Below are positions 685 through 24,852 of a stretch of DNA of 27,108 nucleotides, one piece after another. The notes below the pieces were generated by a model. It was not told the origin of the DNA, made no database searches, and saw only the letters and a program-made list of their open reading frames with translations. A program made the position numbers and the translations under genes. Positions within the stretch are counted from its first letter, which is position 1. Each line of letters starts with the position of its first letter. The stretch comes from a virus, in IMG/VR virus record IMGVR_UViG_3300014502_000030, positions 1 to 27,108 of that record; one strand, written 5' to 3'.

Positions 685-930
685 TCAAATATCCACCACA
701 AATCCCGGCAAATCCGGCGCATCGCCGATAATTGAAGATCCCAGCGCCGGGTCAAGGGCAATCAATACTTTTGCTCCGGCGGCGCGGCCGTTAACGCCTC
801 GCACTCTAATCTGTTGACTATCCAGCGTTAGGCATGTCGTAGTGCCGTCGGCATGTTCAAGCTGCACGGTGGCGATAATTTGCGAGGCTTTCGGGATTAA
901 CGCCTGAAATTGCTGGTATAAGTTCATCAA
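685..930 (-). CDS. Conserved small phage protein, last gene of the tail module (81 aa)
   Basis: This 81-residue acidic protein starts MMNLYQQFQ. Its middle section reads HADGTTTCLTLDSQQIRVRG, and it ends IGDAPDLPGFVVDI. This layout (a beta-rich domain with a 'DGT...' strand pair, an 'RVRG' turn and a C-terminal 'APDLP...I' tail) matches a small conserved protein that follows the tail hub gene in many siphovirus-type prophages. Its role is not known to me; a tail-tip accessory role is inferred from position only. The start overlaps the hub gene stop by ATGA, so it is translationally coupled. It is the last phage gene before the REP hairpin and the tRNA scar. Confidence 0.75.
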   Translation of the reverse strand: MMNLYQQFQALIPKASQIIATVQLEHADGTTTCLTLDSQQIRVRGVNGRAAGAKVLIALDPALGSSIIGDAPDLPGFVVDI

Positions 931-3152
931 TAATGCCTCTCCAGCTCTACCGACTGGCTAACTACGCCATAAGCGGCGGTGACGTTAATGCCTGTTACCA
1001 GGCCGCGCCAGGGGATAGTGTCTGATACCTCGACAAACTGGCCGGGTTCCAGTAGGCCGGTGGTGTCGTTCAAAGGCAGGTCCAGCGTGACCCGCGCTTG
1101 CCTGCCGGTATTCGACAGCACGTTACGCGCCCGCTCGCGTCCGGCATCCACGTAGGTGATCAGGTTGTCGGTGATCATCGGCGCGCTGACATCGCCGCCG
1201 GAGCCGGTAATGTTGGCGGATACGGTGACGCCGTGGCTTTGTCCGGAGACGATGACGTGATTGTAAGCCGGTTGCGGGTTGAGTTGCGTCGATAGTGACC
1301 GCACCAGGCTGAGCGGGATGGTTTGATCAAGCGTGGCGGCGTTCCAATCCCAGGGATTGATGGGGTATCGCGGCGCGATGTGTACCAGCTTGGCATTGCG
1401 ATCCGCGTAAGCGCGCGCGCCAACGGTTCGCGCTATCTGCACAACGGCATCAATGGGTGCTTTGTTTTGATACGACCACGCGCCGCCGGGTATCAGCCAA
1501 TCGGTGGTAAACAACTGCACTAGATTTGCATGGTAGGCCGCGCTCCAGCCGGTATTCAGTAATTCATGATCGATCAACTGCGCGGCGGTTTTTTCATCCG
1601 CTTCCAGGTAAGAGCGTAGCGGCGCGTAAGGATAGGCGAATAACGCCAGGGATGAACGCCCGGACGCGGTGTAAGTATGTTCGCCGAACACGCGGGTCTC
1701 GCCCCATTCTTCAATCAGGGCGGTTATATAAATGCCGTCCAGTTCAATCTGTATTTCTCTGGGTTCGCCATTGACAGATTCCAGCAAGGCCATTGTTTCC
1801 GGGGTTTTCAGATTTAATGTTACGCCCCAGGCCCAACTGTCAACATCGAATTTTAACGTCGCCGATAATACCGGTATCCCGACATTATCGGATGTACGTT
1901 TTACGTTGATGGTATGTAGCACAATAGTGGCTCCTGTTGAAATGGTTATACGAGTATTTGATAATGGCCAGGCATAACACGGACGGCCAAAAACCAGAAC
2001 GGCCCCGCCGATAAAGTCCGGCTCAAGCTGATAAAATGCCAAGTTGGGCGATGCGGTATAAGGCGTCGGCGGTGGTAACGGCGGGTAATGCCAACCACCC
2101 CAAAGCCAGCTGTGCGGCGTGCCCTGGTCCCATAAACTGCTTTCCAAGCGGTTAGTATCCGTCGCTATCCCGTAAAGCGATGACCACGCTAGCAAGCGCG
2201 TTGACCCTTCGCAATAACGGTAAAGCCAAGCTTTCGGTTTGGCGGCGGGGGCGATATAGGCGCTTGAGCGCTGCGCTTGCAAGGGTTCGGCTTGCCCCCA
2301 GACAGTAAACCGATTTAAATGCTTTGCAGGCGCGGCGCTGTAATCCGCTTGGCGCTGCTGCGCTAAAGGTTTACCGATGGCCCAGGCTAATGATGCCGGT
2401 TTATGCTGATGCGGCACATCGGTCCAGCCGAATCGGCTTTCGCTGTAGAGCAGATCGGCGGGTTCCATCGCACTTTCTAATTCTGAATAGTGATGTGTGC
2501 CTTGTAAAAATTGCCCGGTAGTTTGCAAATAAGCATTCCGGCCGGCATTGTCAACGCCGGAGCGGCTTGCTTCAATACCCCGGAAAACGCCTGCTTCAAA
2601 GTGTGATTCACCGGATATACCAACATCACTCAACGTAAAAGCGGCGCTAGTCAGGTAAACATTGGGTATAAAAGCGACAGATCCGGCAATAATGACTTGA
2701 TCTGTAGTAAATGCACAACCGGCTTCAGCATATTCAGTATAACCGGCAGGCGTTGGGTTAAAATTAAGTTCTACCGCATTCCCTGACGGCGGCGTATATA
2801 AACCCTGAAATATTAAATCAGCCGGTGAAACCGGAATCGAACAGGTGGCAGTTCCGGTAATCCCAACCTGGCCGGTAATGAATGCGCAACCGGCCTTGGC
2901 ATTGCCAATAGATGAAGGGTTAAAATTAAAATCAACCGCATTCCCTGACGGCGGCATGTATAAACCCTGAAATATTAAATCAGCCGGTGAAACCGGAATC
3001 GAACAGGCGGCAGTTCCGGTAATCCCAACCTGGCCGGTAATGAATGTGCAACCGGCCTCGGCATTGCCAATAGATGAAGGGTTAAAATTAAAATCAACCG
3101 CATTCCCTGACGGCGGCGTGTATAAACCCTGAAATATTAAATCAGTGGCCAC
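927..3152 (-). CDS. Tail tip/baseplate hub-like protein with N-terminal tandem repeats (741 aa)
   Basis: This is a large tail protein near the 3' end of the tail module. Residues 4-57 and 58-111 are near-identical 54-residue repeats, each beginning DLIFQGLYxPPSGNAVDFNF, and a third, diverged copy starts at 112. The middle carries many aromatic and Pro residues (for example GIATDTNRLESSLWDQG). Roughly the last 330 residues look like a tail hub, with an 'APIDAVVQIARTVGARAYAD' stretch, a long beta-rich section and a terminal 'PGQFVEVSDTIPWRGLVTGI' barrel-like region, as in gp27/gpD-type hub proteins. The start is GTG at 3152, with GGAG seven bases upstream. Tail-tip assignment rests on position and architecture. 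The repeated N-terminal motif may be an adhesion or assembly module. Confidence 0.75.
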   Translation of the reverse strand: MATDLIFQGLYTPPSGNAVDFNFNPSSIGNAEAGCTFITGQVGITGTAACSIPVSPADLIFQGLYMPPSGNAVDFNFNPSSIGNAKAGCAFITGQVGITGTATCSIPVSPADLIFQGLYTPPSGNAVELNFNPTPAGYTEYAEAGCAFTTDQVIIAGSVAFIPNVYLTSAAFTLSDVGISGESHFEAGVFRGIEASRSGVDNAGRNAYLQTTGQFLQGTHHYSELESAMEPADLLYSESRFGWTDVPHQHKPASLAWAIGKPLAQQRQADYSAAPAKHLNRFTVWGQAEPLQAQRSSAYIAPAAKPKAWLYRYCEGSTRLLAWSSLYGIATDTNRLESSLWDQGTPHSWLWGGWHYPPLPPPTPYTASPNLAFYQLEPDFIGGAVLVFGRPCYAWPLSNTRITISTGATIVLHTINVKRTSDNVGIPVLSATLKFDVDSWAWGVTLNLKTPETMALLESVNGEPREIQIELDGIYITALIEEWGETRVFGEHTYTASGRSSLALFAYPYAPLRSYLEADEKTAAQLIDHELLNTGWSAAYHANLVQLFTTDWLIPGGAWSYQNKAPIDAVVQIARTVGARAYADRNAKLVHIAPRYPINPWDWNAATLDQTIPLSLVRSLSTQLNPQPAYNHVIVSGQSHGVTVSANITGSGGDVSAPMITDNLITYVDAGRERARNVLSNTGRQARVTLDLPLNDTTGLLEPGQFVEVSDTIPWRGLVTGINVTAAYGVVSQSVELERHY
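2658..3143 (-). repeat. 162-bp in-frame tandem repeat (two near-identical copies plus a diverged third)
   Basis: Copies at 2982-3143 and 2820-2981 differ at only a few bases; the third (2819 to about 2658) keeps only its first half well. The period is 162 bp (54 codons), so the reading frame is kept. The near identity of copies 1 and 2 at DNA level, including third positions, points to a recent duplication. Confidence 0.88.
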
Positions 3153-5179: not shown

Positions 5180-5194
5180 CGTTTAAATCCTGTT

Positions 5195-5249
5195 GTAGGG
5201 GCGAATTTATTCGCCCGGTTTTGGGATAGGCGAATAAATTCGCCCCTAC
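5195..5249. repeat. REP pair, family A (GTAGGGGCGAA), abutting a stop codon
   Basis: Two palindromic units in inverted orientation: 5195-5216 (GTAG foot, then GGGCGAAT..ATTCGCCC) and 5229-5249, ending CCCCTAC. The outer arms match perfectly over 21 bp. The GTAG foot plus imperfect palindrome is the known architecture of REP sequences moved by REP-associated tyrosine transposases. The unit ends immediately before the TAA stop (5250-5252) of the next gene on the minus strand. Confidence 0.88.
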
Positions 5250-8948: not shown

Positions 8949-8960
8949 TTTCAAGCCTTT

Positions 8961-9019
8961 GTAGGGGTGAATTTATTCACCCTGTTTGTTTTGTCAATGG
9001 GCGAATTTGTCGCCCCTAC
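8961..9019. repeat. REP pair, family A, supplying a stop codon
   Basis: Unit 8961-8982 (GTAG foot, GGGTGAAT..ATTCACCC palindrome) faces unit 8999-9019 (GGGCGA..TCGCCC, ending CCTAC). The stem of the first unit has compensating changes (GGGTGA/TCACCC instead of GGGCGA/TCGCCC), showing that the hairpin is maintained. The TAG inside the terminal GTAG foot is the stop codon (9016-9018) of the upstream tail gene. Confidence 0.85.
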
Positions 9020-12725: not shown

Positions 12726-12780
12726 GCCACAGATTCACAGATTAAATTTAACCGGTTTTTTTAATCTGTGAATCTGTGGC
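12726..12780. repeat. Perfect 21-bp inverted repeat, family C (GCCACAGATTCACAG)
   Basis: The left arm, 12726-12746 (GCCACAGATTCACAGATT then AAA), is exactly complementary to the right arm, 12760-12780, around a 13-base loop. A diverged copy lies at 22492-22537. It begins two bases after the -1-frame stop of the chaperone fusion (12783-12785), read on the minus strand. This mirrors the family C copy just after the large terminase stop. It may act as a terminator or as an mRNA 3' hairpin between chaperone and tape measure. Confidence 0.9.
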
Positions 12781-12782
12781 AA

Positions 12783-13004
12783 TCAATCATTGCTATTAAA
12801 TTTAAGTACATTCAAAAAAAATCCCCAGCCGTAATCGAACACCTGGCTGTGGCCCCGTTCAATCAATCCGCAACAGGTCCGGTCGAGATCGGTTCCGGCG
12901 GTTTTGGTCCGGTTGAGATCGGTTCCAGCGGTTTTGATCCGGTCGATATCGGTTCCGGCGGTTTTGGTCCGGCGGCGGGATCGAGTCCCGCCAGGATCAA
13001 AAAA
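12783..13004 (-). other. Candidate -1 frameshift site and gpT-like extension of the tail chaperone
   Basis: In the chaperone frame the bases T TTT TTG (minus strand; 13004 to 12998) fall in the right phase for a -1 slip at codons Phe89-Leu90. The -1 frame is then open for 71 codons to TGA at 12783-12785, passing through all 30-bp repeats and ending LIERGHSQVFDYGWG... before the stop. This would give a fusion of about 161 residues. Lambda-type phages make gpG and gpGT in this way, and a short 'LI.rGH..V.dY' segment is usual in the T part. Seen: the heptamer, the phase and the open frame. Inferred: that slipping occurs. Confidence 0.55.
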
Positions 13005-13267
13005 GGGCTATTCACCGCTTTAAATCCGTCAATGACCAATTGCAATTCACTGCCGCATAAATCGTCGATGCTTTCGCCTTCAGGGAAAGTCATAAACGGT
13101 TTAACCAGCGCCGATATTTCCGCAAAACGCGGACCCAACAAGGCACTAATATTCAATTTATCCAGATCCGTAAATCCCGATAATAATTGCCGCACGTCTT
13201 TGACGCGCAATTCCTGCACGGTAATAACGCGGTTTTCATCAAGATTTATCGTTTTGCTGTTGCGCAT
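12863..13267 (-). CDS. Tail assembly chaperone, gpG-like (134 aa)
   Basis: The protein lies between the tail tube and tape measure genes, the canonical place of the tail assembly chaperone that coats the tape measure during assembly. The N-terminal 85 residues (ENRVITVQELRVKDVRQLLS..., then ISALVKPFMTFPEGESIDDL and ELQLVIDGFKAVNSPF) have the 'tvrEltv.d...ll' start and the 'L...f..vN.pF' end of the gpG family. The C-terminus is three 10-residue repeats, KPPEPISTGP. I start at ATG 13267: upstream codons in this frame come from a REP element. The -1 frame continues past the stop (see the frameshift entry). Confidence 0.8.
   Translation of the reverse strand: MRNSKTINLDENRVITVQELRVKDVRQLLSGFTDLDKLNISALLGPRFAEISALVKPFMTFPEGESIDDLCGSELQLVIDGFKAVNSPFLILAGLDPAAGPKPPEPISTGSKPLEPISTGPKPPEPISTGPVAD
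12876..12970. repeat. 30-bp tandem repeat, three copies, inside the tail chaperone gene
   Basis: Units 12881-12910, 12911-12940 and 12941-12970, plus a five-base lead-in, share GGTCGAGATCGGTTCCGGCG-like sequence. The 30-bp period keeps all frames. On the minus strand the zero frame reads KPPEPISTGP and the -1 frame reads TKTAGTDLDR, so both products tolerate the expansion. It is too short and unspaced to be a CRISPR array. Confidence 0.9.
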
Positions 13268-13280
13268 ATTGATTTCTACG

Positions 13281-13327
13281 GTGGGAGCGGCTTTAGCCGC
13301 GATGAGCGCGGCTAAAGCCGCTCCAAC
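13281..13327. repeat. REP element, family B (GGAGCGGCTTTAGCCGCGA)
   Basis: This is a 47-bp palindrome: GTGGGAGCGGCTTTAGCCGC (13281-13300) is answered by GCGGCTAAAGCCGCTCC and an AAC tail (to 13327). A second copy with the canonical GTAG foot lies at 24464-24510. It sits in the 70-bp gap between the tail tube stop (13338) and the chaperone start (13267), and it extends the chaperone frame artificially upstream. Confidence 0.9.
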
Positions 13328-16932: not shown

Positions 16933-16957
16933 TTTGTGTTTCCTCGAATAGTTTAAT

Positions 16958-16983
16958 GTGGAGGCGAATTTATTCGCCCCTAC
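16958..16983. repeat. REP element, family A, supplying the capsid stop codon
   Basis: Single unit: GTGGAGGCGAATTTATTCGC followed by CCCTAC (16958-16983). The minus-strand GTAG foot contains the TAG stop codon (16980-16982) of the protease-capsid gene, which ends NAGTGS. The unit lies in the gap before the decoration gene. Confidence 0.85.
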
Positions 16984-18953
16984 GAGCCGGTGCCCGCATT
17001 CTTGACAGCGCCTCGGTAATCGATGGCGGCGACGCCGTAATCCAGCCGCACTTTCCATTGCAGGCCGTCTACGTTAAAGCCCAATTCATTGTCCAGAAAC
17101 GGCATTTGTTCGCCGTTCAGGAAAGCCACTTCGATAATGGGCGCTTCGCCGGGATCGGCGAACACATACCATTCGGTGCCGGAAATACGCGGGGAATCGA
17201 TAACATCCCGGAACAGACCTCGCACCCGGTTAGGCATTTGCAATTTATTGGCGGTATCCGGATCATATTGCGCTTCATTGGTGACGCGGGCCGCGCCGCC
17301 CTGGCTCATGCCGCCCAGCCAAAGGGCGGGGCGCAAGTCCAGGTAATCATTGCCGCTGACATCCAGTTGTTTAGCTAGTAACAGGCGCGCCGCTTCAATA
17401 GAGGCGACAGTTACAACTGCGGCGGTACCTGCTACATTGCCATGCAGGGCATCAAACAGGGGAATGCCGTCATAAAGAGCAGGATTGGACGCCAACAAGG
17501 CGTAAACATCCGCCTCAATGGTGCGGCGGGCGGCGCGGCCCAGCATTGACGACAGACCGATAAACGCGCCCAGATCGTCATTGATGATGGTTTGGCGGCT
17601 GATATTGATAATATTGCCCTTGGTTTTAGCGATGATCGTGGATTTTTCACCGTCCGGAATGGATTTGTTCTTAAACTCTGAGAGTTCAGTTACTTCGTCC
17701 AGGTTGCCGAAACTGCCTATGCGGTAGCGGTTATGCACGCGAAAATCCGTCACCGAGCCGACGGCGCAAAAGCGCGTCCAGGTATCTGGCGCGGTGGCGT
17801 AAGCAGTTTGCAAGGTTTTGTGCATCGCGCTTTCCAGCAGCAAAGGAAAGTCACTGGTGCTTTGGGTAAAAGCACGCTTGACCATTTCCAGTTCATTCAT
17901 GCCTTTAATCGTTTCGCCGCCACGTTCAAGACAGAGTTTGGCGATTTCAGTGAGGCGCATGCCGCGCAGTTCATTGCCAGGGTCCATTTTTTCAACCCCG
18001 GCCCGGCCGCGCAGGGCGTTAACCCCGGCTTCAATAAATTTGTCTTTGGCATCGACAGTCACGGAGGCATCGCTACGCGAGGTTTCGGCGTTCACTTTAT
18101 CGGCCCATTTTTGCAACATTTGTTCTTTGGCATCCGTGAAACTGATTCCGCGTTCAATGAAATCATTAATCGTTATTTCATCGGATCTGGACATCAGCCC
18201 GAATTTACGGATCCCGGCGATGCGGTCGCGCTCTTGCCGGGTTGATTCCGCGCGAATGGCAATCTCGCCTTCGCTGCTTTGAGCGCCTGCGTTGTGCGAA
18301 GCCGAAGGGTCGGGGTTGTTGATAACCGCAGCCGGAACAGCACTGTCCGCCCTGGTTTGATCGGTTGGCGTGTTTACGACTGGAGTAGTCATGGTTTTGT
18401 CCTCATTTATGATTATTACGGTGTTGGTTTCGCCTTCGCCGCGCACTTGCGCGCCTGCGTCAGCAGGTATGGGCACGATGGATATTTCCATCGGTTCCCA
18501 GTCTATTGCCCGGTAAACTGTAAGATCGTCCTGCTTTTCATCCATTTTTTGCATTTTATTGATGTGATAACCGATGCTGATATTGCGTAAAATACCGGTC
18601 TTGACATCATTTAAAATCGGTTTAACTTCATCGCGTTCGCTGAAACGCACTTGCGCGCGGCCTTCATTGCCTAAAAGCCACGCGCGTTCAACAACGCCAA
18701 TGACATTGGAAAGATCATAATTGTCATGGTTAGCGAGCAGAGGCGCTCCGGAATTAAGCCGGTCTAAATTGACATGATTTTTATCTAGACTTAATTCCTC
18801 GATCCATTGATTTTCTGTCCAAAAATCCGTGCGGCGCACTTGCGAGCCGGTTGACCAGGTCAGTTCAACAGTCCGGTCAGTTTCATTCAGCGTGGTCGGA
18901 ACAAACGCCGCGCGGGTGTGGAGCTTAGGAAGCTGTCTGGTTTGGGCCGGCAT
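16980..18953 (-). CDS. Prohead protease-major capsid fusion protein (657 aa)
   Basis: Numbered from GTG 18962, residues 15-175 are an HK97-family (U35) prohead protease. His79 lies in PLLANHDN, Ser129 in GILRNISIGYHI and an acidic residue in EPMEISIVPIPAD (Glu159), matching the catalytic triad. A Gln/Glu-rich, partly disordered linker and helical scaffold-like region (about 235-340) follows. Residues 375-655 are an HK97-fold major capsid protein (for example PLLLESAMHKTLQTAY, GNIINISRQTIINDDLGAFI, WYVFADPGEAPIIEVAFLNG). Such fusions are known in proteobacterial prophages, where the protease part cuts itself off during maturation. ATG 18953 is preferred over GTG 18962 because AGGTG lies eight bases upstream. 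It overlaps the portal gene end by 29 bp. Confidence 0.93.
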   Translation of the reverse strand: MPAQTRQLPKLHTRAAFVPTTLNETDRTVELTWSTGSQVRRTDFWTENQWIEELSLDKNHVNLDRLNSGAPLLANHDNYDLSNVIGVVERAWLLGNEGRAQVRFSERDEVKPILNDVKTGILRNISIGYHINKMQKMDEKQDDLTVYRAIDWEPMEISIVPIPADAGAQVRGEGETNTVIIINEDKTMTTPVVNTPTDQTRADSAVPAAVINNPDPSASHNAGAQSSEGEIAIRAESTRQERDRIAGIRKFGLMSRSDEITINDFIERGISFTDAKEQMLQKWADKVNAETSRSDASVTVDAKDKFIEAGVNALRGRAGVEKMDPGNELRGMRLTEIAKLCLERGGETIKGMNELEMVKRAFTQSTSDFPLLLESAMHKTLQTAYATAPDTWTRFCAVGSVTDFRVHNRYRIGSFGNLDEVTELSEFKNKSIPDGEKSTIIAKTKGNIINISRQTIINDDLGAFIGLSSMLGRAARRTIEADVYALLASNPALYDGIPLFDALHGNVAGTAAVVTVASIEAARLLLAKQLDVSGNDYLDLRPALWLGGMSQGGAARVTNEAQYDPDTANKLQMPNRVRGLFRDVIDSPRISGTEWYVFADPGEAPIIEVAFLNGEQMPFLDNELGFNVDGLQWKVRLDYGVAAIDYRGAVKNAGTGS

Positions 18954-20364
18954 TGTTTTCACCTGAATTGTTTGACTGGGCGAATGAATTCGCCCCTACG
19001 GATTGTGATTGTCCCTGTCCGGGAATCTTGCGGGCATCGCTGTCCAGGACCAGGCCCAGTGTATCAAGCCGCGCATTGTCGGCGGCCATTTCATTGAGTA
19101 ATTGTTCGGGGTCGTAACCCTGTTCGCGTATCGCCTCGGATTGGGTCATCAGGCCGGAACGGATGGCATCTTTAATGGCGGGTATTTCCCGGATCGGGTC
19201 CACCATCATGCGGGCGGGCGGCGTCCATTCACATGTTAAATACGGGATCCCAGAAGTGCCGGCAAACCAGTTGGCCACGCCATCGCACAAGCGCGGAATA
19301 ATGAGATTCCAGCGCCAGGCGTCAATGCTGCGGCCGAATTCCTGCCAGCCCATGCGGGCGCTGGAAAAATTGACCTGTGACAAATCGCCGGTCAGCGCTT
19401 CATAAGTAATTCCTAAACCCGCTGCAATCGCCCTGAGATTGGCGAGCGTGTACGGCCCGTAATCGTCGGCTTTCGGCGGGTCGGAAAATTGCACGGTGCG
19501 GCCGTTTTTTAACGTGTACATCGAGCCGGGTATCAGTTCCGAGACATCGCTGAATTCCGTTTCCGCTTCGCTCGGGTCATCGGTATAAATAAAGCCGGCA
19601 AAGAGGTTAGCTATTTTTTGCCGGCTCAGGTAGGCGTCTTCATAAATATCGAGTTCCCGCAAGCGGATCATGACTTGCGTCAACCAGGATACGCCGTGCT
19701 CTTGCCCCGGCCGGTCAATCCGGTAAATATGAATTATTTCCGTAGCGGGGACGCGGGAATAGCCGCTTTTGTAATGGTTGTAAAACTGGCCGATTGAACC
19801 GGGATGGGTTTTGTATAGATAGTAAGCAACACGGCGGCCAAGTACATCGTACTCAATACCACGCTGAATATAATTGCCGCCTATAAGCGGTCCGTCATTA
19901 AATTCATAGAGATAATCCGGTTCCAGGATTTGCAATTGAAACGGCACGGCCAGTCCTTCGGAAGCATAACGCGGCCGTATCCTGATCAGGCATTCGCCGG
20001 ATTCGGCAACCGAGCGCATCACGGTTTGCTGGATGCCGTAAAAATTTTGCATGCCGCAGGCATCGCATTGTCCGGTTTCCGCCCAGGCTTTCCAAAGATC
20101 CTGCGCCAGTTTGGTGTTGCGTTTGTTGCCTGCCTGCCACTGGGCGCGGATACCGTAGCCGACGACATTGTTGACGATGACAGATATGCCTTTGGCCGCC
20201 CAGGGATTGTTCCTGACTAGGTCACGGGCCCGGTTGCGGATTAAAGCGGGGTTGGAAATGGCGGAGGTGGCATCGGTGGCAGGCGTTTGCCAGTTGGTAG
20301 TACGCGTGGTCTTGCTGGCGGCGTCGTACCGGCGTTTGGTGATGGGTACGATTTCTGCGCTCAT
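18925..20364 (-). CDS. Portal protein, lambda family (479 aa)
   Basis: The portal forms the dodecameric channel for DNA at one head vertex. Seen here are RARDLVRNNPWAAKGISVIV near the N-terminus, a VRSVAESGECLIRIRPRY-like segment, PDYLYEFNDGPLIGGNYIQR, GRRVAYYLYKTHPG and IIHIYRIDRPGQEHGVSWL. These are the conserved landmarks of the lambda portal family (gpB), in order. Length is normal. Residues 455-464 (SVGANSFAQS) are encoded by a REP element, so the last 25 residues are REP-derived or post-REP sequence. The start overlaps the gpW stop by ATGA. Confidence 0.95.
   Translation of the reverse strand: MSAEIVPITKRRYDAASKTTRTTNWQTPATDATSAISNPALIRNRARDLVRNNPWAAKGISVIVNNVVGYGIRAQWQAGNKRNTKLAQDLWKAWAETGQCDACGMQNFYGIQQTVMRSVAESGECLIRIRPRYASEGLAVPFQLQILEPDYLYEFNDGPLIGGNYIQRGIEYDVLGRRVAYYLYKTHPGSIGQFYNHYKSGYSRVPATEIIHIYRIDRPGQEHGVSWLTQVMIRLRELDIYEDAYLSRQKIANLFAGFIYTDDPSEAETEFSDVSELIPGSMYTLKNGRTVQFSDPPKADDYGPYTLANLRAIAAGLGITYEALTGDLSQVNFSSARMGWQEFGRSIDAWRWNLIIPRLCDGVANWFAGTSGIPYLTCEWTPPARMMVDPIREIPAIKDAIRSGLMTQSEAIREQGYDPEQLLNEMAADNARLDTLGLVLDSDARKIPGQGQSQSVGANSFAQSNNSGENNAGPNQTAS
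18978..18999. repeat. REP element, family A, inside the 3' end of the portal gene
   Basis: GGGCGAATGAATTCGCCC (18978-18995) followed by CTAC (to 18999): a single unit with the GTAG foot on the minus strand. It is read through in frame by the portal gene and lies 16 bases before the ATG of the protease-capsid gene on the minus strand. Confidence 0.82.
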
Positions 20365-22541: not shown

Positions 22542-24446
22542 TTAAAGTAAATAGCTATTTTTCTTCGGTTTTTTTAAGGGCTTTTGCGACGGCGTTAATT
22601 CGATTACATTCGACTGGTTGCTCCGCGCTGCCGCATCCAGGTTACTGCCGTATTGATTCAGCAATTCATCCCACTTGGCTTTAGTGTGCAGATGCAGCCG
22701 CAATTCCTGGTGATGCGCGGCGGCGTATGAATAAACCCAGGTATCAAGCATTTCATTACGAGCGCCGCGTTTCTTGATAAAGCGGTTAGCGCGTGGGTCG
22801 AAGGTTTCCGATGTTATACCACTGAAGAAATCATTAGGCAAATCCTCGCTAAAATGCACCATGCGCTCGTGTTGCTCTTTATCGCCGTCGGTGGCGAGAC
22901 GGCCAAACAGGACGTTTTTAACGGCCACGGTGCCGACATGCTGGATATGCACTCCACGCTTGTTAAATTGTCCTTTCCAGTTGACATCCTGCGGCTTGGG
23001 TTTGGATAAAACTGGGGCATTGTTGGGAATCGCGCCAAAAATGACCATAGGGCGGCGAATCATCCTGCGGCGCACAAAGTCCTTGACTGCTTCGGTTCTG
23101 TGGCCGCCTGCGTCAATGGCGGTGGCCTGAATGGGCAATTTATGGCCGTTGATGTGATCGATAGGCTTGTTTAGCAGTTCAGTAAGTGCCACCCATACCG
23201 TATCATCAGCAGGATCGCCCATCAGTTCGACATAATCTAGAATCCAGCACGCCATGCCTTTTCCCCAGCCGACGATCTGCACGGCCAGGCGGTTGTCCTG
23301 GGTGTCAACGCCTGCCGTGACCGCGCACACGCCCAAAGGGGCCACTCTGAGACGGTACGGTTCGACGCGGTCGGCGATGACGTTCATCTTGACCGCCCGC
23401 ATGGACGGGTCTTCCCAGGCGACGGCCAAGCGGGAATTAAGGAAACTTTTCAGACGGCCAATGTCGTTATAGGCTTGCAGCCACATATCAACCAGGGTTG
23501 CCCAGCGCGGACCCAGGCCGATCTGGTAATACAGTGCGTTGATGTGGTAGCCCCTTAATTTCGGTCCGGGATTGGTGGCGATCCAGCGGCCTTTTTTGAT
23601 CATATCAGTTTTGTAGTGTTCTTCAATCTCGCAGGCGCATTCGGGGCAGACATACCGCGCATCGGCGCCGCCTTCGCGCCAGTGCAGGCCGGCCCATTCA
23701 AACAGGATTTCTTCATTGCAATGCGGGCAGGGCATGAAATATTTGCGTTGATCGGATTTTTCGTAGAGTTCCTCGGTGCGGCAAATGCCTTTGATACCGG
23801 GCGATGAAATGTACAGGCGTTTATAGTTGGCCGGAAAGGCGGAGGTGCGGTCTTCCAGCAACATGAGCGGGTCATCGCCGGTGACCAGATTACCGGCAAA
23901 CTCGGTCAGTTCATCGACGATGAGGAATTTAACGGTGGTGGATTTAAGGCGGCTTGGGGATCCGGCGTGTTCCAAATAGAGTTGACCGCCGATAAAATCC
24001 TTGAATTCTTTGGTATTGGCGCTGTTGCGGCTGTTTTGCGAGGTTAATACCGCTTGAACGACAGGCGTTTCCTCGATCATGGGGTTAAGTTTTTGCGCAA
24101 TCCATTTGTTCATCCCTACCTCGCCGGGCAGGCAGACCATGACCGGGCCGGAGCCGTTGGCCATGAAGTAGGCGAGGGCGTGGGTGGCTACGGTCGTTTT
24201 GCCAAATTGGATGGGGAACATCAGCACCACATCCTTGACGGTGGAACGCGCGGACATACAATCCATCGGTTCGCGAAGCGGCGGATTGCGGTCGGTGTGG
24301 AACGGCCCCGGTTCGGCGCTGCCTTTTTTGGACAGGCGGATTTCAGCATCTGAAAATTCGGATACGGTTTGGATTTTACGCGGCGCGAAGGCGCGGGCGC
24401 GGGTGGCGTGGATCAGGCGGGCGGCGTTTGGGTAGGTTTCAGCCAT
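22542..24446 (-). CDS. Terminase large subunit, GpA family (634 aa)
   Basis: The packaging motor ATPase/nuclease. Numbered from TTG 24455: Walker A-like loop in MFPIQFGKTTVA (residues 79-90), Walker B in KFLIVDELTEF (176-186), two zinc-type pairs CPHC (243-246) and CPEC (270-273), and the nuclease domain with VTAGVDTQDNRLAVQIVGWG (Asp384) and AIDAGGHRTEAV (Asp448). Order and spacing match lambda gpA-type terminases. The ATG at 24446 is preferred over TTG 24455. Its first eight bases, ATGGCTGA, overlap the stop of the methyltransferase fragment, suggesting that the fragment is still translated to couple expression. The small subunit lies about 1 kb away instead of adjacent. Confidence 0.96.
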   Translation of the reverse strand: MAETYPNAARLIHATRARAFAPRKIQTVSEFSDAEIRLSKKGSAEPGPFHTDRNPPLREPMDCMSARSTVKDVVLMFPIQFGKTTVATHALAYFMANGSGPVMVCLPGEVGMNKWIAQKLNPMIEETPVVQAVLTSQNSRNSANTKEFKDFIGGQLYLEHAGSPSRLKSTTVKFLIVDELTEFAGNLVTGDDPLMLLEDRTSAFPANYKRLYISSPGIKGICRTEELYEKSDQRKYFMPCPHCNEEILFEWAGLHWREGGADARYVCPECACEIEEHYKTDMIKKGRWIATNPGPKLRGYHINALYYQIGLGPRWATLVDMWLQAYNDIGRLKSFLNSRLAVAWEDPSMRAVKMNVIADRVEPYRLRVAPLGVCAVTAGVDTQDNRLAVQIVGWGKGMACWILDYVELMGDPADDTVWVALTELLNKPIDHINGHKLPIQATAIDAGGHRTEAVKDFVRRRMIRRPMVIFGAIPNNAPVLSKPKPQDVNWKGQFNKRGVHIQHVGTVAVKNVLFGRLATDGDKEQHERMVHFSEDLPNDFFSGITSETFDPRANRFIKKRGARNEMLDTWVYSYAAAHHQELRLHLHTKAKWDELLNQYGSNLDAAARSNQSNVIELTPSQKPLKKPKKNSYLL

Positions 24447-24852
24447 TTTCTTCAAATTCCCTGGTAGGAGCGGCTTTAGCCGCGATGGTCGCGGCTAAAG
24501 CCGCTCCTACATTGTCGAAGGTTTGGCCGGTGGCTTCGAGGGTGGCTTGCTGGTTGGTGTAGATTTGCCAGCGGTTAACTATTACATCAACATACGCTGG
24601 GCTTATCTCTAATCCGTAGCAGATACGGTTAGTTTTTTCGGCGGCTATTAGGGTTGTGCCTGAGCCGAGGAATGGATCATATATGATATTTCCCGCTTTT
24701 GATTTTTCTATACACCACTCCATCACTGCAACCGGCTTTTGTGTTGGATGTTGTACTTTTTCAGGGCGGATTATGCCTTGACTGGTGATAGACAAAATAT
24801 AAACATCTTTACCGCCCTTCATCCATGTTTGATGAATCAGTTTTGGGCTCAT
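24439..24852 (-). pseudogene. N-terminally truncated DNA methyltransferase with REP-encoded C-terminus (137 aa)
   Basis: Visible are HPTQKP (35-40), the AdoMet-binding motif I DPFLGSGTTLIAAE (59-72) and RWQIYTNQQATLEATGQTF at the family's usual end. The catalytic motif IV (DPPY or similar), which lies N-terminal in this class, is absent; only about 34 residues precede HPTQKP. The remnant is therefore probably not catalytic. Residues 115-130 (VGAALAATIAAKAAPT) are encoded by a 47-bp REP element. The stop overlaps the large terminase start. The break at its 5' side coincides with an inverted repeat and an opposite-strand cassette, suggesting that insertion removed the 5' half. A stand-alone C-terminal protein is a less likely alternative. 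Confidence 0.78.
24464..24510. repeat. REP element, family B, inside the methyltransferase 3' end
   Basis: The 47-bp palindrome GTAGGAGCGGCTTTAGCCGC ... GCGGCTAAAGCCGCTCCTAC has the GTAG foot at both ends. It is read in frame by the methyltransferase fragment and ends 17 bases before the large terminase ATG on the minus strand. It is a near-identical copy of 13281-13327. Confidence 0.92.

Follow-up and report, generated by a model that had tools for sequence, protein, structure and literature searches.

We propose that a tail gene of this virus is translated in two forms through a programmed -1 ribosomal frameshift, which would yield a tail assembly chaperone pair made up of a short G protein and a G-T fusion. 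Judging from the sequence, we put the probability of this reading at about 95%. The DNA analysed, referred to as the window, is a 27,108-base virus record from IMG/VR. The proposal is based on the anatomy of the locus, the gene order, the conservation of the heptamer, the -1 frame and both protein parts, and the occurrence of natural in-frame fusions.

Reading frames and gene order

Three genes follow one another on the minus strand. These are the major tail (tube) protein (14087-13338; phrog_807, E 1.7e-31), the chaperone gene (13267-12863), and the tape-measure protein (12696-9391; Pfam PF20155, E 1.8e-52). Tail chaperone genes of the lambda and P2 types are placed between the tail tube and the tape measure (PMC5009743; P2 record). 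With phrog_807 upstream and PF20155 downstream, the gene described here has the placement of a frameshifted tail assembly chaperone of this type. The zero-frame gene runs from an ATG at 13267 to a TGA at 12863 and encodes 134 aa, which we assign as the short G-type form of the chaperone. It matches phrog_7608 (E 2.3e-7) and has homologues in IMG/VR.

The slippery heptamer T TTT TTG is located at 13004-12998 on the minus strand, within zero-frame codons 88-90 (CCT TTT TTG) of the ATG-started ORF. The -1 frame, open from 13007 onwards, ends at a stop at 12783 after 70 codons past the heptamer. The extension on the minus strand (13004-12783) consists of a linker and the T part, whose conserved core, LIERGHSQVFDYGWGFF, begins at 12866. 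A slip would therefore replace the 134-residue zero-frame product by a predicted fusion of 161 residues. Both the phase of the heptamer and the open -1 frame with its core had been described in the initial annotation, and both stand. The long genes of the window offer 5733 codon positions, of which 3 have an in-phase T TTT TTN, and a -1 frame of equal length arose in 178 of 2000 dinucleotide shuffles (9%). The window alone is thus only moderately unlikely by chance, so homologues were needed, and the heptamer and the -1 frame gain their significance from conservation in these homologues.

In the mechanism that we propose, most ribosomes would stop at 12863 and release the 134-aa G-type protein. 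We infer the slippage and its efficiency: a minority of ribosomes would slip by -1 on U UUU UUG, with the P-site tRNA-Phe and the A-site tRNA-Leu re-pairing on UUU UUU. The slip would probably be aided by a hairpin that starts 4 nt downstream. Slipped ribosomes would then read on to 12783 and produce the G-T fusion of 161 aa. Analogy with lambda G/GT and P2 E/E+E' suggests that the G part would serve to coat the tape-measure protein and that tail-tube subunits would be recruited by the T part.

The overlap of the two frames contains a 30-bp tandem repeat in 3.2 copies (12876-12972, minus strand), which lengthens the linker and is absent from L002, an 85% identical relative. As the repeat unit is a multiple of 3, both frames stay open and both readings are lengthened. 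The T core starts 46 codons past the heptamer in the window versus 24-37 codons in relatives.

A palindrome (12726-12780; -33.9 kcal/mol, z -10.5) is observed just past the -1-frame stop and belongs to a dispersed repeat. The initial annotation had taken it to follow the stop exactly as a sister copy follows that of the large terminase, and to mark the true end of the gene. The palindrome itself is real. The match in spacing is not exact, however: with the CCACAG/CCATAG arm common to both copies as the reference, the gap measures 3 nt at this site versus 6 nt at 22542. Because L002 lacks the palindrome at the same place and the terminase sister is spaced differently, its use as a marker of the gene end had to be abandoned. 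The palindrome is probably an unrelated dispersed repeat that lies outside the recoding signal.

Other repeats are present in the window. A REP-like palindrome, GGAGCGGCTTTAGCCGCG..CGCGGCTAAAGCCGCTCC, occurs in two copies that are 92% identical (13280-13327 and 24463-24510). The first of these lies directly upstream of the chaperone start, and L002 has a copy at the same place. A further dispersed palindrome family, GTAGGGGCGAATTTATTCGCCC, is found at gene borders (5193-5221, 8959-8987, 16956-16984, and 18975-18999). A 162-bp tandem repeat (2.4 copies, 96% matches; 2755-3145) is located at the start of a 741-codon ORF (927-3152). Multiple bacterial-style repeat families within one phage genome look unusual.

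Conservation of both protein parts

Scans of IMG/VR, first with the G part as query and next with the T part, gave more than 50 loci; these were classified by a script, and duplicates were removed. There are 36 non-redundant frameshift-type loci, with the window counted among them. T TTT TTN is in phase at the VNxxF motif in 36/36 of these, where T TTT TTN was also what the script used to call the frameshifted state, and the sole locus misplaced in this way was L028. With the exception of L028, every locus that lacks a site at the motif is an in-frame fusion. The heptamer ends in G in 16 loci, C in 7, A in 7, and T in 6. In L028 (approximately 2945-2955), C TTT TTC replaces T TTT TTC and the T part is still in the -1 frame; this is the only relative with a non-standard site.

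The T part is conserved as a protein in the -1 frame, with the core LIERGHxxVxDYGWxFF, and GHSQVFDYGWGFF would be an example of a peptide from that frame. In the closest relative (L042/L002, 85% identical), the heptamer is identical and the -1 frame contains LIERGHSRVFDYGWGFFLNVLKFNSSE. Past the zero-frame stop, substitutions in pairs of relatives at positions 1, 2, and 3 of the -1-frame codons number 180, 146, and 329, a sum that is indicative only because the compared pairs share branches. The corresponding differences between the window and L042 are 1, 2, and 11. In 14/36 loci, the zero-frame stop falls within the T-core codons for Leu-Ile (e.g., C TGA TC; 12863-12868 in the window). The same bases there both encode the T core and terminate the short form.

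A single continuous G + T frame is present in nine loci (L020, L040, L044, L052, L054, L057, L059, L064, and L065). The junction in these lies just past the N-x-x-aromatic position that they share with the frameshift-type loci. L044 alone has a first half that matches phrog_7608 and a second half that matches phrog_14432. A tree of the fused proteins calls for four switches between the two states, frameshifted and in-frame, and well-supported branches force at least three of them; the count is approximate because the sequences are short and there are two long end branches. A search of the fetched DNA around the in-frame fusions, up to approximately 3 kb on either side, revealed no second, short G gene. 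The in-frame fusions L040, L052, and L065 retain T TTT TTT at the slip position, where a slip would truncate the protein. An "inverted" system, in which slippage gives the short form, was considered for these three and rejected; their -1 tails of 9, 32, and 20 codons are unconserved.

The alignment of homologues, with the heptamer at the motif in 36/36 loci and nine in-frame G-T fusions, decisively bears out the earlier expectation that the T part would be kept in the -1 frame. The gpG-gpT-type fusion that had been suggested for the window is likewise supported by the heptamer, the frame, and the conservation of both parts in relatives. A tblastn search of the annotated phage collection with the G part returned no match, and scans of genome contigs gave no confirmed relative.

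For the G part of the window, phrog_7608 (unknown function) was the sole match, and no family in Pfam was hit. Among the 36 G parts, phrog_7608 is matched by 28, including that of the window, and phrog_1442 ("tail assembly chaperone") by 4. Eight of the 36 match the Pfam family Phage_TAC_7 (P2 gpE, Mu gp41) at E <= 0.01, with a best value of 1.7e-5. A family HMM run against P2 E and Mu gp41 gave scores not above shuffles, and NCBIfam yielded only scattered, weak, unrelated matches.

The AlphaFold model of the G part, built with 36 sequences (pLDDT 81), shows a beta hairpin followed by helices. Its best alignment in the PDB is to 3klu (YqbN, the chaperone encoded by a prophage-like element of B. 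subtilis), with a middling Z of 5.1 over 80 residues. The HK97 tail assembly chaperone (2ob9) ranks third with a modest Z of 2.9. Several named chaperones are among the weak matches in BFVD. The model of the L044 fusion has two structured parts, with low-confidence residues 81-95 just past the junction. A fold search with the in-frame fusion model gave no meaningful match in the PDB.

Signals around the heptamer and rival explanations

A GC-rich hairpin, UGGCGGGA-CUCGA-UCCCGCCG, occupies 12993-12973 on the minus strand. It has 8 pairs, including one U-G, and a 5-nt loop. The 30-nt fold has an energy of -16.1 kcal/mol (z -2.5). For the 45 nt downstream of the heptamer, z against shuffles is -2.78 in the window, and the family mean is -1.39 (n=36). 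The window thus carries a stable hairpin a few nucleotides downstream, as a dnaX-like signal does, and this hairpin is likely to be a frameshift stimulator.

Most relatives have a Shine-Dalgarno (SD)-like element, GAGGTNAAY, approximately 10 nt upstream of the heptamer. Of the 24 loci with Glu in the E-V-N motif, all 24 encode it by GAG, compared with 86/186 for Glu before Val in the flanking genes (counts uncorrected for relatedness). The use of GAG creates GAGGT(U), which is SD-like and has a spacing near that in dnaX. The SD-like element of dnaX stands at about the same distance from its heptamer as GAGGT does here. A per-locus hybridisation test of the element was only mildly significant. 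Its degenerate counterpart in the window, GCGGTGAAT (13018-13010, minus strand), has a hybridisation energy of -3.3 kcal/mol, which does not surpass that of synonymous shuffles, and does not qualify as the SD-like part of a dnaX-like signal. The SD-like element was lost in the window; a three-part slip signal in the relatives is probable.

Could the -1 frame encode a separate protein, made by re-initiation at a TTG that overlaps the zero-frame stop (T-TGA), with no slippage at all? In the window, the TTG at the start of the T core does overlap the zero-frame TGA (12863-12866). However, ATG, GTG, and TTG are all absent between the heptamer and the T core in 26/36 loci, so a separate start of the T part is impossible there. 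The zero-frame stop is elsewhere in many loci, and the natural in-frame fusions join the two parts at the heptamer position. Re-initiation is thus very improbable. We hold it to be just as improbable that the frames are joined by transcriptional slippage on the T run rather than by ribosomal frameshifting. Every site is indeed a T run, with at least seven T in six loci, but the heptamer ends in a non-T base in 30/36, so the runs are mostly short. Transcriptional slippage usually requires runs of about 8-9. The ribosome is also favoured by the structure downstream and by the bias towards GAG upstream.

The split could also reflect decay of the gene or a frameshift introduced by sequencing, the phage having one in-frame gene, as nine related loci with a single frame might suggest. 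To this explanation we give next to no weight: the same split and heptamer recur in 36 non-redundant loci from many metagenomes, and the -1 frame is under protein-level constraint. Programmed -1 frameshifting on the heptamer remains our reading of the locus.

Comparison with known systems

Frameshifted G-T tail chaperones are a well-known kind in lambda and P2 (PMC5009743, PMC10885494). Added to this kind are a conserved family for a PHROG without an assigned function, a three-part signal that is probable in the relatives, and repeated conversion between frameshifting and in-frame fusion. At somewhat less than even odds, we suggest that these phages share a large, unannotated family of tail chaperones with a dnaX-like three-part slip signal (GAGGU, U UUU UUN, hairpin) that has repeatedly switched between frameshifting and obligate in-frame fusion. 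If such switching is true, the short G form, which is needed in lambda at a balanced ratio, would be dispensable in some phages. The frameshifting and in-frame fused relatives are natural pairs for studying why a set ratio of two chaperone forms is retained by most tailed phages. The PHROG of unknown function becomes a family with a testable role, and gene predictions for these phages that leave out the T part can be corrected. No frameshift is given for PHROG 7608, and the T part lies outside it.

P2 is among the closest known systems. The P2 record annotates E+E' as a -1 frameshift. The heptamer there, in the same phase as in the window, is an identical T TTT TTG and lies close to the 3' end of a gene of approximately 90 codons just upstream of the tape measure. 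The HMM finds no sequence similarity between P2 E/E' and the G and T parts of this family, however, and the P2 extension is without the LIERGH...YGWxFF core. Neither lambda G nor lambda T was linked to this family by the searches. The slippery sequence of lambda, GGGAAAG, is also unlike T TTT TTN. What lambda G/GT shares with this family is the layout, in which a tube gene, G with its -1 extension T, and a tape measure follow one another, together with the inferred roles (PMC5009743). E. coli dnaX has the same three-part signal of an upstream SD-like element, a heptamer, and a downstream hairpin (PMC3711429). It differs in being another gene with another heptamer, and the SD-like part is a trait of the family that is degenerate in the window.
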